Shown here piece after piece: positions 11,752 through 16,374 of a stretch of DNA of 45,979 bases. The stretch is from Pseudomonadota bacterium (GTDB lineage Bacteria > Pseudomonadota > Gammaproteobacteria > Xanthomonadales > Xanthomonadaceae): positions 1 to 45,979 of the forward strand of contig JAFEFT010000006.1 in the NCBI GenBank assembly GCA_018240435.1. The letters run 5' to 3'. Numbering within the stretch: the stretch's first letter is position 1; each line of letters starts with the position of its first letter. The notes under the pieces were generated by a model that was given only the letters and a program-made list of their open reading frames with translations, was not told where the DNA came from and made no database searches. The position numbers and the translations under genes were made by a program.

Positions 11752-11774
11752 GGGTATCCGGATTTTAGTGTGGG
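11752..11774. repeat. Left terminal inverted repeat (IRL)
   Basis: It reads GGGTATCCGGA, TTTTA, GTGTGGG. Compared with IRR read inward it differs only at positions 12, 14 and 16. Confidence 0.92.
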
Positions 11775-11853
11775 AAGACCGCACTAGCCCTTCTTGTCTG
11801 ACAGCTCTCGTTCGGTAGGTTTCTGGTATCGCAAGGCTTACGCGCTTTTAGCC

Positions 11854-11864
11854 TTCAGTGTGGG
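11854..11864. repeat. Left subterminal copy of the terminal-repeat motif
   Basis: TTCAGTGTGGG repeats the inner end of IRL (TTTAGTGTGGG) about 90 bp further inside and in the same orientation. It may be an additional transposase-binding site. Confidence 0.4.
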
Positions 11865-11977
11865 CTTTGTCTGGCGCATGTCGGTGCAAGGAAACAATCA
11901 GTGGCAGGTCACCTTGCCCCCGGCTCGAACTGGGGTTTGAGGCGCAGTGGAACGGAAAACCGGGTTAAGCCACGCGC

Positions 11978-12385
11978 CTAGCTCCCGTGCAGAGAATCGA
12001 TCAGCGGGCACGACACAGTGCCTCGCTGCGCATGGCACTCGTTGACCAACCGTGACAGCACCGCTTCGATTCGCGTCAGGTCCGCCATCTTGGTGCGCAC
12101 GTCGGTGAGCTGGAGCGCAGCCAGCTCGGCGGCTTCGCTGCAGTGAGTGCCGTCCTCAAGCTGTAGGAGTTGGCCGACTTCGTCCAGGTTGAACCCCAGC
12201 CGCTGGGCGGATTTCACGAAACGCACCCGCGCCACGTCCGCCGATCCGTAGCGGCGAATACTGCCGACGGGCCGACCTGGTTCTGGCAATAACCCCTTGC
12301 GCTGATAGAACCGGATGGTCTCCACGTTGACCCCAGCGGCCTTGGCGAAAGCCCCGATGGTCAGTGTTTGCGGATCGTTCACCAT
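11978..12385 (-). CDS. merR: Mercuric resistance regulator MerR
   Basis: This 135-residue protein represses and, on binding Hg(II), activates the divergent mer operon by untwisting its 19-bp-spaced promoter. The N-terminal winged HTH ([20 protein letters not shown], residues 8-27, with the [15 protein letters not shown] wing) is followed by the long dimerisation helix. All three metal-binding cysteines are present at 82 (HCSEA), 117 (ECHAQ) and 126 (SCPLI), the spacing found in classical MerR. Length is normal. It is transcribed away from merT, with the operator between them. Confidence 0.97.
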
Positions 12386-12390
12386 CGCGC

Positions 12391-12421
12391 TTGACTCCGT
12401 ACTTGACTACGGAAGTAACCT
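12391..12421 (+). promoter_or_regulatory. mer operator-promoter
   Basis: TTGACT (-35, 12391-12396) and TAACCT (-10, 12416-12421) are separated by 19 bp, the overlong spacer that makes mer promoters dependent on MerR. Between them lies the dyad TCCGTA (12396-12401) and TACGGA (12408-12413), the MerR binding site. Transcription runs towards merT. Confidence 0.93.
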
Positions 12422-12459
12422 TAGCGCATCACGCAACGTCTCGGAAGGAGATCCCTCAC

Positions 12460-13101: not shown

Positions 13102-13111
13102 GCACACGCTC

Positions 13112-14806
13112 ATGACCGAGGCGATCACGCTGCACATCGATGGCATGACCTGCGGGTCGTGCGCCGAGCACGTCAAGCAGACCTTGGAAAAGGTGCCCGG
13201 CGTGCGTTCGGCCTCAGTGTCCTACCCACAGCGCCGGGCCGAGATTGAGGCCAGCGTAGGTACCGCCGCGGACGTGACCTCGCTGGTCGCGGCGGTATCC
13301 GCACTCGGTTACCGAGCGCAGCTTGCCGATGCGCCGGGGCAACCCAGCGACCTGCTGAACAATGCACAAGAGCGGCTGGGCGGCGAACCAAAGCGCGAGG
13401 ACGATGAGGCTGCACTGCACGTGGCCGTGATCGGCAGCGGCGGCGCGGCGATGGCGGCGGCGTTGAAGGCCGTCGAGCAAGGGGCGCGTGTGACGCTGAT
13501 CGAGCGCAGCACTCTCGGCGGCACCTGCGTCAACGTCGGATGTGTGCCGTCCAAGATCATGATCCGCGCTGCCCACATTGCGCATCTGCGTCGCGAGAGT
13601 CCGTTCGATGACGGCATTGCCGCCGCCTCGCCGAAGATTCTGCGTAAGCGCTTGCTGGCTCAGCAGCAGGGGCGCGTCGATGAACTGCGCCACGCCAAGT
13701 ACGAAGGCATCCTGACGAGCACCCCGACCATCACCGTGCTGCGCGGCGATGCCCGATTCAAGGATGCGCACACGCTGACCGTGGCAACCGCTGACGACGG
13801 GATGCGCGAGGTGAGTTTCGACCGCTGCCTCATCGCCACCGGGGCCAGTCCGGCGATTCCACCGATCCCGGGCTTGAAAGACACGCCCTTCTGGACGTCG
13901 ACCGAAGCGCTGGCCAGCGACACGATCCCCGATCGGCTGGCCGTGATCGGCTCGTCGGTGGTGGCCGTCGAACTCGCGCAGGCCTTTGCCCGGCTGGGCA
14001 GCAAGGTGACCATGCTGGCGCGCAGCACACTGTTCTTTCGCGAAGACCCCGCCATTGGCGAGGCCATCACGGCCGTGTTCCGCGCCGAAGGCATCGAAGT
14101 GCTGGACCACACCCAGGCCAGCCAGGTCGCCTATGAGGATGGGGAATTCGTGCTCACCACCGAACGCGGCGAACTGCATGCCGACCGGCTGTTGTTCGCC
14201 ACCGGCCGCACCCCAAACACCCGCACGCTCAACCTCGACGCGGCCGGTGTGGTGGTCAATGCGCAAGGCGCCATCACCATCGACCACGCGATGCGCACTA
14301 CCGTGCCGCACATCTATGCCGCCGGCGACTGCACTGACCAGCCGCAGTTCGTCTACGTCGCGGCGGCGGCCGGCACCCGCGCTGCAATCAACATGACGGG
14401 TGGCAACGCGACGCTGGATCTGACGGCGATGCCGGCGGTGGTGTTCACCGACCCGCAGATCGCCACCGTGGGCTACAGCGAAGCCGAAGCGCACCACGAC
14501 GGTATCGAGACCGACAGCCGCACGCTGACGCTCGACAACGTGCCCCGGGCGCTGGTCAACTTCGACACGCGCGGTTTCATCAAGCTGGTTTCGGAGGCCG
14601 GTTCGGGACGACTGATCGGCGTGCAAGCGGTAGCCCCGGAAGCAGGCGAGCTGATCCAAACCGCAGTACTGGCGATTCGCAACCGCATGACGGTGCGAGA
14701 GTTGGCCAACCAGTTATTCCCCTACCTGACGATGGTCGAGGGGCTGAAACTCGCGGCACAAACCTTCACCAAGGACGTAAAGCAACTGTCCTGTTGCGCG
14801 GGGTAG
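13112..14806 (+). CDS. merA: Mercuric reductase MerA
   Basis: This 564-residue flavoprotein reduces Hg(II) to volatile Hg(0) with NADPH in the cytoplasm. An N-terminal heavy-metal-associated domain (GMTCGSC, C14 and C17) is followed by the FAD site ([20 protein letters not shown]) and the redox-active disulfide ([14 protein letters not shown]139 and C144). The NADPH-binding region follows ([18 protein letters not shown]), then the [11 protein letters not shown] block and the dimerisation domain. The C-terminal cysteine pair that delivers Hg to the active site is intact (LSCCAG). It is full length, with no frameshift. It starts 10 bp after merP. The operon ends here; merD and merE are not present. 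Confidence 0.97.
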
Positions 14807-14888
14807 TGGCTGGGCCTCTTACCTATGCTTCATCGGCTGAATCACAAATTCAGGCTGAAGCGCCGCCTCTTGCACAATGGGCTGAGGA

Positions 14889-16229
14889 CTATTCGAAATA
14901 CCCCTCTTCGAGTAGCCGCGCCAGCGTCGGGAGATAGGGGCCGTACTCGACCACGCGCGTGATCTTCTTCTTGCGCGTTGCCGCCGTGGTCATCCGCTGG
15001 AACACGAAGTCCGTGGTCATTGGGTCGTCGTCATCGACCAACACGGTTTCGATAACCGAGCCATCCTTGCGCGCCTTCTTGTCGTAGAGCATGCGCGCCC
15101 GAAGCACCTCGAAGCTGTAACCCCTGCCCATGCGGTTCATGTCTTTGGCCACTCGGTTGACTGACTCAGTATAGGCATTGGTAATCGGCTGCTCGAAGTA
15201 GGCGAAGATTTCGTCGTGCCAGTTGTGCACGGCGGTGGTCAGGTCCTTGAACGTGGCCGCCAATTCGGTCGGAATATTGGCCTGCCACTTCGCGCAGGCG
15301 GCTTCTGCTGCTGGGCGGGTCTTCTGATCCCAGATCGACAGAAATCCTTCCTTGAGCGCGTGGGCTTCGCTTAGGAGCGGGAACTGTTGGAACCATTCCC
15401 GCATCCGGTCCATATCTCTCCCTGTCAGGTCGTGCTGCCGCTTGAGCAGCAGGAACCGCTCGTCCTTGAGTTTGAGGCGCTGCCGGGTGGACAAATCCTT
15501 GCGAATGCGCTTGCGCAGCTTCTCCAGCGCGTCGTTCGCCATGCGCTGGATATGGAATCGATCGACCACGATCCGGGCCTGTGGCAGCGTGGCGCGCACC
15601 ACCTGCCGATAAACGTGGTACATGTCCATCGCCACCCACTCGACCGAGTCCTTGTCCCGCAGGTCGCGGAAATAGGGCATCAACTCGGCTTTGGCCCGGC
15701 TGGGGCGGATATCGAACACGGTCTTGCGCTCGACGTTGGTGATCATGGCCCGGTACTGGCCGATGATCTTGAGCTCGTCGATACCCAGCACCCGCGGCGT
15801 CCGGAACTGGGTCTTGGCCTCGACCTCCTCGATGAAATCGTCGAAGACGTGGCGGACCGTCTTTTCGTCCACGGCTACTTCCCGGGCAAGGGCCGCAAAG
15901 GTCTTGGAGAAGGACTGGTCGCGGATATAACGCACCAGACGCGCCGTGGCTTGGCGTTTTCCATCAAGGTCCGCCACAGGCTCAAACAAGGTCTTGGTGC
16001 AGCTTGTACAGCGATAGCGACGGCGCTGGATGAAGATCACGACGGGTTTGCCGTGCGTCGGTGTGTCCTGAAACGACTGTTCCTGTGAGCCGTGACCATG
16101 CAGGCGTCCGGTCTTGCACAGCGGGCAGGTCACCCACTGATTGACGCCTTCGGCCTTGACGACGTAACTGTCCTCGCTGGTCAGGATTTCAAGCGTCTTC
16201 AGGCTTCGCAGCTGGAGAAAGTCCGTCAC
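14889..16229 (-). CDS. tnpA: ISL3-family transposase
   Basis: This 446-residue protein is a complete ISL3-family transposase. The N-terminal zinc-binding region has two CxxC pairs (C35/C38 in VTCPLCKTG and C74/C77 in YRCTSCTKT), followed by an HTH region. The catalytic DDE triad appears as D151 (VLGIDELKII), D223 (IVVDRFHIQRM) and E355 (NAYTESVNRVAKDMNRMGRG), the usual ISL3 motifs, with the long insertion between the second D and E. It lies at the right end of the element and is transcribed inward, converging on merA with an 82-bp gap. It should act on the flanking 23-bp repeats and make 8-bp duplications, as seen. Confidence 0.95.
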   Translation of the reverse strand: MTDFLQLRSLKTLEILTSEDSYVVKAEGVNQWVTCPLCKTGRLHGHGSQEQSFQDTPTHGKPVVIFIQRRRYRCTSCTKTLFEPVADLDGKRQATARLVRYIRDQSFSKTFAALAREVAVDEKTVRHVFDDFIEEVEAKTQFRTPRVLGIDELKIIGQYRAMITNVERKTVFDIRPSRAKAELMPYFRDLRDKDSVEWVAMDMYHVYRQVVRATLPQARIVVDRFHIQRMANDALEKLRKRIRKDLSTRQRLKLKDERFLLLKRQHDLTGRDMDRMREWFQQFPLLSEAHALKEGFLSIWDQKTRPAAEAACAKWQANIPTELAATFKDLTTAVHNWHDEIFAYFEQPITNAYTESVNRVAKDMNRMGRGYSFEVLRARMLYDKKARKDGSVIETVLVDDDDPMTTDFVFQRMTTAATRKKKITRVVEYGPYLPTLARLLEEGYFE

Positions 16230-16246
16230 TCAGCACCTTGGGCGAA

Positions 16247-16262
16247 CCCACACTGAAATCCG
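16247..16262. repeat. Right subterminal copy of the terminal-repeat motif
   Basis: CCCACACTGAAATCCG is, read inward, a near copy of the middle of IRL (it matches CGGATTTTAGTGTGGG except at one position) but lacks the outer GGGTATC. It lies just upstream of the transposase start. It may be a transposase-binding or autoregulatory site, or the remnant of an older end. Confidence 0.5.
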
Positions 16263-16351
16263 ACTTTTACTCTAGCACATCCGCTCAGCCGTCCAACACC
16301 AAAATCCATTCTTTGAAAGTGATAGCTACAAAGACCCAAGGAGCCAGAACC

Positions 16352-16374
16352 CACACCAGATTCCGGATACCCAA
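16352..16374. repeat. Right terminal inverted repeat (IRR)
   Basis: Read inward from 16374 it is GGGTATCCGGA, ATCTG, GTGTGGG. It matches IRL at 20 of 23 positions and abuts the right AAAAGAAA duplication. Confidence 0.92.

Follow-up and report, generated by a model that had tools for sequence, protein, structure and literature searches.

Genes and ends of the element

We analyzed a 45,979-nucleotide stretch of contig JAFEFT010000006.1 (assembly GCA_018240435.1, a member of the Xanthomonadaceae; hereafter the window) and found that it contains a complete ISL3-family element of 4621 bp at positions 11752-16372, present as one copy in the source genome, in which a mercury-resistance (mer) operon lies beside one transposase gene. 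merR, encoding the Hg(II)-responsive regulator (135 aa, 11978-12385, reverse strand), is transcribed away from three forward-strand genes: merT for the mercuric ion transporter (116 aa, 12460-12810, its start set as in the annotation of a near-identical copy), merP for the periplasmic Hg(II)-binding protein (92 aa, 12823-13101) and merA for the mercuric reductase (564 aa, 13112-14806). Each mer product scored above the cut-off of the corresponding curated NCBIfam equivalog, with 172.8 bits against 150.85 for MerR (TIGR02051; the same annotation is given in a near-identical copy), 212.7 against 150 for MerT (NF010314), 143.6 against 92.55 for MerP (TIGR02052), and 614.8 against 454.45 for MerA (TIGR02053), in which Pfam places an N-terminal HMA domain and Pyr_redox domains. 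Between merR and merT, the mer promoter/operator (12391-12421, forward strand) reads TTGACT, starting at 12391, a 19-bp spacer and TAACCT, the spacing typical of MerR-type promoters. With merB, merC, merD, merE and merF all missing from the element's five genes, this is a narrow-spectrum operon. From established knowledge of mer systems, MerR would switch on merTPA when Hg(II) is present, MerP and MerT would import the ion and MerA would reduce it to Hg(0).

The fifth gene, at 14889-16229 on the reverse strand and thus convergent with merTPA, encodes a 446-aa transposase that scores above the ISL3 NCBIfam cut-off (NF033550, 306.8 bits against 180). Its Pfam matches comprise DDE_Tnp_ISL3 (PF01610, 210 bits), Zn_ribbon_ISL3 (PF14690, 39.7 bits) and PF13542, the last exactly at its cut-off of 27.4 bits; a DDE transposase with a Zn ribbon and a helix-turn-helix domain places the element in the ISL3 family. 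All gaps between the element's genes are shorter than 230 bases. No terminator was recognised in the 91 nt that separate merA from the transposase gene: this stretch folded no better than its shuffles (z of -0.91 and -0.58), and a consensus scan returned none. An earlier reading made from the letters alone, the sequence-only reading, had reported merR, merT, merP and merA with a 19-bp-spaced promoter and a single ISL3 transposase, and the profile scores and the promoter motifs agree with it.

Terminal inverted repeats of the ISL3 family begin with GG and span roughly 15-40 bp. Here, the left repeat (IRL, 11752-11774, forward strand) reads GGGTATCCGGATTTTAGTGTGGG and the right one (IRR, 16350-16372, reverse strand, given as its reverse complement) reads GGGTATCCGGAATCTGGTGTGGG, so that two 23-bp ends starting with GGGTATCCGGA are identical at 20 of 23 positions. 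Immediately outside them, at 11744-11751 and 16373-16380, the 8-bp sequence AAAAGAAA stands as a perfect target-site duplication, and 8 bp is the duplication length of the family. Both the ends and the duplication had been noticed in the sequence-only reading and were reproduced here; its right boundary, 16374, lies two bases inside the duplication and is corrected to 16372.

Recurrence of the unit and its relation to ISStma11

The same unit was found at many other sites, each with its own duplication. Duplications were read in the 22 copies that have both ends and both flanks, namely the window, 15 loci identical at ≥94%, two copies on plasmids and four from a ~81%-identical clade; the count excludes the flankless loci L011, L022 and L026 (whose contigs are the element itself), shortened copies, and L043. 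The duplication was 8 bp in 19 copies and 9 bp in one (L016), and none was found in two (L018 and L034). The 20 copies with a perfect duplication represent 16 distinct sites, 13 of them occupied by copies at ≥94% identity and three by the ~81% clade, and most of the duplicated targets are A or T runs. Furthermore, four loci in other genomes of the family (L045, L046, L056 and L057) hold an uninterrupted target site, the alignment past the junction extending over 27 bases only in L045 and over >380 bases in the other three, which have a single-base gap within the A run. Because the unit recurs at other sites with other duplications, the element is not a chance assembly, and mer genes and transposase as accidental neighbours are excluded. 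The recurrence of the block at 16 sites with perfect duplications likewise bears out the proposal, made from the window's letters, of an ISL3 "transporter IS" (tIS; IS, insertion sequence) with a minimal merRTPA cargo inside IS-type ends, as the occurrence of the ≥94% identical unit at 13 distinct sites does for the accompanying suggestion that the element is intact and has moved recently. That reading would have fallen had mer genes and ends never been mobilised together, and the genome search it proposed for the unit with different 8-bp duplications found the opposite.

Transposases of the plasmid copies, one in Dyella and three in Xanthomonas euvesicatoria, are annotated by NCBI as "ISL3-like element ISStma11 family". 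We consider it highly likely, on the strength of these comparisons, that the element is a copy of the ISL3 IS known in NCBI annotation as ISStma11: a transporter IS carrying a minimal merRTPA passenger, with merR divergent from merTPA. Comparison of the copies suggests that the single ISL3 transposase would act on the two 23-bp ends and move the whole 4.6-kb unit, inserting it into mostly A/T-rich targets with duplication of 8 bp. No resolvase would be needed, and, by analogy with the family, an excised circle may be the intermediate; the accessible part of one paper names ISL3 among the families with a circular copy-out intermediate (PMC7986276).

The element is very probably the already registered ISStma11 and hence probably not new. 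In the part of a study available to us, a printed ISfinder search table gives an ISStma11 match at 3426-3409, so that the entry has at least 3426 bp (PMC10383950), whereas the usual ISL3 elements measure 1300-1550 bp according to the portion of a further paper that we could consult (PMC3960245); an entry above the usual length should hold passengers. The likeness to ISStma11 consists of this length and of the name on the transposase of a copy that differs from the window element at 2 of 4621 bases, and no difference was seen in a comparison made by annotation name and entry length, not letter by letter. The sequence-only reading had left open whether such a combination had been described: the name ISStma11 and the length of that entry speak against novelty, and a published entry with the same structure exists very probably, not certainly. 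In the excerpts of the literature on ISStma11 and on ISL3 elements and mercury that were available (PMC6305408, PMC4447125, PMC3960245 and others), we found no description of the element.

Several observations weigh against this reading. L018 and L034 show no duplication, which adjacent recombination or deletion might explain in both; in L019 and L033, which share one site and the same 4-bp deletion in IRL, the duplication was read only after allowing for that deletion; and that ISStma11 is registered with its mer genes, very probable as it is, draws on entry length and naming only. The last point leaves some room for the element to be an undescribed relative of ISStma11, with the NCBI name serving only as a family label for the transposase. 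The annotation wording "ISStma11 family" would suit such a relative, as would the fact that the mer content of ISStma11 is deduced from the ≥3426-bp length and from its placement beside mer genes in the accessible parts of two Salmonella papers (PMC11271444 and PMC10868623). We nevertheless regard an undescribed relative as unlikely, given that passengers are to be expected in an entry so much longer than the usual ISL3 element and that the reports of ISStma11 in enterobacteria fit best if the entry contains mer.

These reports are themselves informative. In the sections seen of five papers, ISStma11 is listed in Salmonella or Klebsiella genomes or IncHI2 mcr-9 plasmids, and one paper, also seen in part, lists it in Pseudomonas aeruginosa islands. 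None of 5426 complete Escherichia coli genomes, however, carries at least 80% of the transposase, partial matches occurring in 112 of them (the best among the matches listed with 38% coverage at 67%), and no enterobacterial plasmid among 72,556 plasmid records has that much of it. On the simplest reading, the enterobacterial "ISStma11" calls may be cross-hits in which ordinary mer operons match the entry's passengers; this reading is drawn from E. coli genomes and plasmids rather than from the papers' own sequences or from Salmonella, Klebsiella and Pseudomonas chromosomes. If the registered IS does contain mer, any ordinary mer operon, as in enterobacterial resistance regions, may prompt IS-calling software to report ISStma11.

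Distribution and comparison with known carriers

We searched for the transposase by pattern in a set of 84,980 species with one genome apiece, a method that recovers close relatives only, and obtained 35 loci. At 16 of these the transposase is full-length at ≥99% DNA identity, and mer genes adjoin it in all 16 (15 complete, and one partial in L015). Four further loci hold part of a ≥99% transposase, two with complete mer (L031 and L032) and two that end at a contig edge before mer (L021 and L038), while L040 retains 99 bp of such a transposase at a contig edge. Identity of ≥99.8% over full or near-full length was seen in loci titled Thauera, Dyella, Stenotrophomonas, Lysobacter, Rhodanobacter and others. 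Of 397 genomes sampled from the order, seven, the window's genome included, have the 1484-bp right-end segment (transposase and end) full-length at ~100%, and one more has two thirds of it. The three contigs that consist of exactly one element, L011 (4621 bp), L022 (4594 bp) and L026 (4520 bp), are as expected of collapsed multi-copy repeats. Overall, going by record titles, some of them of metagenome-assembled genomes (MAGs), a 4.6-kb unit with a full mer operon is present in Gamma-, Beta- and Alphaproteobacteria, on plasmids and on other contigs.

Near-identity over such a range could also stem from a single source that contaminated assemblies or bins. Several of the contigs do come from MAGs (among them L006, L008, L010, L012, L014, L017, L020 and L021), and L006 and L008 have the window's own site and flank, yet the unit also occurs in records not titled as MAGs and in plasmids titled as complete, its sites and duplications differing among them (L007, L013, L016, L041 and L042), and we consider contamination very unlikely.

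Plasmids carry the unit rarely. At least 80% of the transposase, by DNA, is found in four of the 72,556 records, all at ≥99%: the Dyella plasmid, whose copy is the one with two differences, and the three X. euvesicatoria plasmids, of which one copy differs from the window at four positions and one lacks the left 440 bp. A megablast search with the whole element matched 3995 plasmid records, four of them over at least 80% of its length; among the 40 matches listed, the 36 beyond those four cover the mer part only, judging from coordinates and feature names.

Mer operons are commonly carried by Tn3-family elements, which in the Tn21/Tn501 type have a Tn3 TnpA, a resolvase with res, 38-bp ends and a 5-bp duplication. 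That the mer genes are the remnant of a decayed transposon of this kind, with the ISL3 transposase a later neighbour and the ends bracketing no single unit, would agree with this habit and with the 3995 plasmid matches of which only four span ≥80% of the element, but it has a negligible chance of being right, and a Tn3-type carrier is refuted, since the five genes are merR, merT, merP, merA and an ISL3 transposase, the gaps leave no room for a Tn3 transposase or resolvase, and the block is bounded at 16 sites by 23-bp ISL3 ends and 8-bp duplications. The element exemplifies cleanly how metal resistance is carried in nature by a plain IS, equipped with a single transposase and a pair of short ends, rather than by a Tn3-type transposon.

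Among described ISL3 elements with passengers, ISPpu12 resembles the window element in its transposase (43.7% identical over 87% of the query in the best ISPpu12-named match) and in carrying metal-related passengers with a regulator. One of its ends reads GGGTATACGGATTTAATGGTTGAT; the other was not found by pattern search. Its passengers, by contrast, are a CadR-named regulator, a cation transporter and a signal peptidase (lspA), and its transposase gene comes last, on the transporter's strand, whereas the window element has a merRTPA cargo and a convergent transposase gene with its own upstream region. ISPpu12 also carries a regulator gene, tnpR, according to the part seen of one paper (PMC4133298). 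ISPst2 and ISPs1 (ISL3, ~2985 bp) have two passengers and A/T-rich 8-bp duplications, and the first 13 bases of their left end, GGGTATCCGGAATTTCTGGTTGAT, equal those of the window element's IRR; their cargo differs, being an ArsR-type regulator and a permease, with the transposase gene following that of the permease in the same direction (gene order taken from the copy on plasmid pYR1). In ISKpn25, the ISL3 transposase is 37.9% identical over 99%, and a type I restriction-modification set stands beside it instead of mer genes. Tn21, Tn501 and Tn5053 share merR with merT, merP and merA, the mer DNA reaching ~78% identity in the best of the listed plasmid matches confined to mer, irrespective of their carrier; these transposons differ in using another transposition system, of the Tn3 or Tn5053 type with a resolvase, and many of the matches listed contain extra mer genes such as merC or merF.

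Possible cargo exchange, end repeats and the host region

The association of mer and transposase appears to be old. In the related clade (L024, L025, L026, L030, L034, L029 and, in part, L027), the transposase is ~82-83% and merRTPA ~82-84% identical to the window's, and because the two have diverged to a similar degree, they have probably travelled together since before this ~82% clade split off. In L022, the transposase is 81.5% and mer 75.9% identical. Two ~80% relatives, L023 and L028, showed no mer in the sequence examined, which in L023 extends only 1.8 kb beyond the transposase. More distant relatives have other contents. The 2.6-kb L035 has a single reading frame, of 264 aa and unknown role. 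L037 (a Bacillota MAG, 94-4959), a 4.9-kb relative with some undetermined bases in one short stretch, has a 44% identical transposase and ends matching IRL at 21 of 23 positions; by reading of its translation, it carries an Rrf2-like regulator and two MFS-like transporters. At 7411-7433, 8554-8576 and 12446-12468 of L028, near-identical copies of another IS end in GGGTGTCAGGATTTTTGTGTGAG, which agrees with the ISL3 left end at 19 of 23 positions; this IS has a different transposase, by reading of the letters alone.

The closest mer operons without this transposase in the stretches examined are merRTPA-like as well, at 86% (L144), 83% (L145), 82% (L146) and 80% (L147) identity. The match to L144 runs from the merR end to 3 bases past merA, so that the cargo is essentially merRTPA. 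In L145, with no ISL3 transposase near its mer operon, an 84-bp segment (3396-3478) matches element positions 103-181, outside mer, at 80%, and is possibly a trace of an older carrier.

Exchange within the cargo is suggested by two copies. In L017, the shell and the transposase show three differences from the window, while element positions 969-2977 (the merT end, merP and most of merA) fall to 76-93% identity; in L148, element positions of about 1060-1600 fall to 90-94%. Such sharp mer patches in a constant shell suggest homologous recombination with other mer operons. The donor of the L017 patch was not found, the best listed matches elsewhere, at ~89.5% among the loci compared and 87.8% in the plasmid megablast, being copies of the element; L017 is a MAG contig, and its patch may alternatively come from a chimeric assembly.

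Subterminal repeats of the terminal core were found at both ends of the element, with a threshold of 11 of 15 matches for which shuffling predicts 0.048 (right) and 0.028 (left) occurrences. The core is iterated, facing the same way, at right-end positions 9, 66 and 112 and at left-end positions 9 and 99. The left inner repeat (11850-11864, forward strand, element positions 99-113) matches the IRL core at 11 of 15 positions, and the right inner repeats, both on the reverse strand, read GGATTTTGGTGTTGG (16293-16307, right-end positions 66-80) and GGATTTCAGTGTGGG (16247-16261, right-end positions 112-126). The best 13-base repeat match was equalled in 17 of 20,000 shuffles. When eight right ends were aligned (the window and seven relatives), all three sites could be recognised in each of them, and 17 of 23, 10 of 15 and 12 of 15 columns were invariant in the three successive sites, compared with 17 of 83 elsewhere up to position 136. 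In L035, where the terminal GTGTGGG has become CTGTGGG, both inner sites also read CTGTGGG; L023 and L028 have the C in the second site as well (CTGTTGG) while their terminus keeps the G, which weakens the covariation of inner repeats with the terminus. Covariation is thus suggestive at site 3 only. At the 11/15 threshold, the left inner repeat was not found in L022, L035 and L037, and L037 showed no inner repeats at either end.

The right inner repeats coincide with a candidate promoter of the transposase gene, in right-end positions TTGGAC (-35, 77-82), 16 bp and TAGAGT (-10, 99-104), ahead of a GTG start at 144: site 2 overlaps the candidate -35, and site 3 lies just downstream of the candidate -10. 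This candidate is placed by position only, as a consensus promoter scan of 14800-16380 returned none. Tentatively, and with the balance of our judgement against it, the three repeats, the innermost at the likely start of the transposase transcript, might form a self-limiting switch by which the transposase represses its own gene, in an element whose transposition is uncoupled from the cargo promoter and whose mer alleles are exchanged by homologous recombination within a constant shell. The uncoupling would follow from the convergent orientation of the transposase gene to mer and would set the element apart from ISPpu12 and ISPst2, and induction by Hg(II) should accordingly not drive the transposase.

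The copy in the window lies in a mobile-island-like region with genes for ParB, a DUF932 protein and a tyrosine integrase. At the AAAAGAAA site the element occurs in L006, L008 and L009 as well as in the window, and the 3.2 kb to its right are ≥99.7% identical in these loci, implying that the host region spread with the insertion inside. The left flank in L006 and L009 is about 88% identical over 2.9 kb, yet ≥99.7% in its last 300 bases. The target site of the element is at the edge of a dispersed repeat of ~126-150 bp, two copies of which, 88% identical, occupy 7538-7663 and about 11595-11724 of the window, and the repeat also occurs in several genomes of the family. In the same element-bearing region, at 17153-19449, a gene for a DUF1016/YhcG nuclease of the PDDEXK type stands beside the tyrosine integrase gene.

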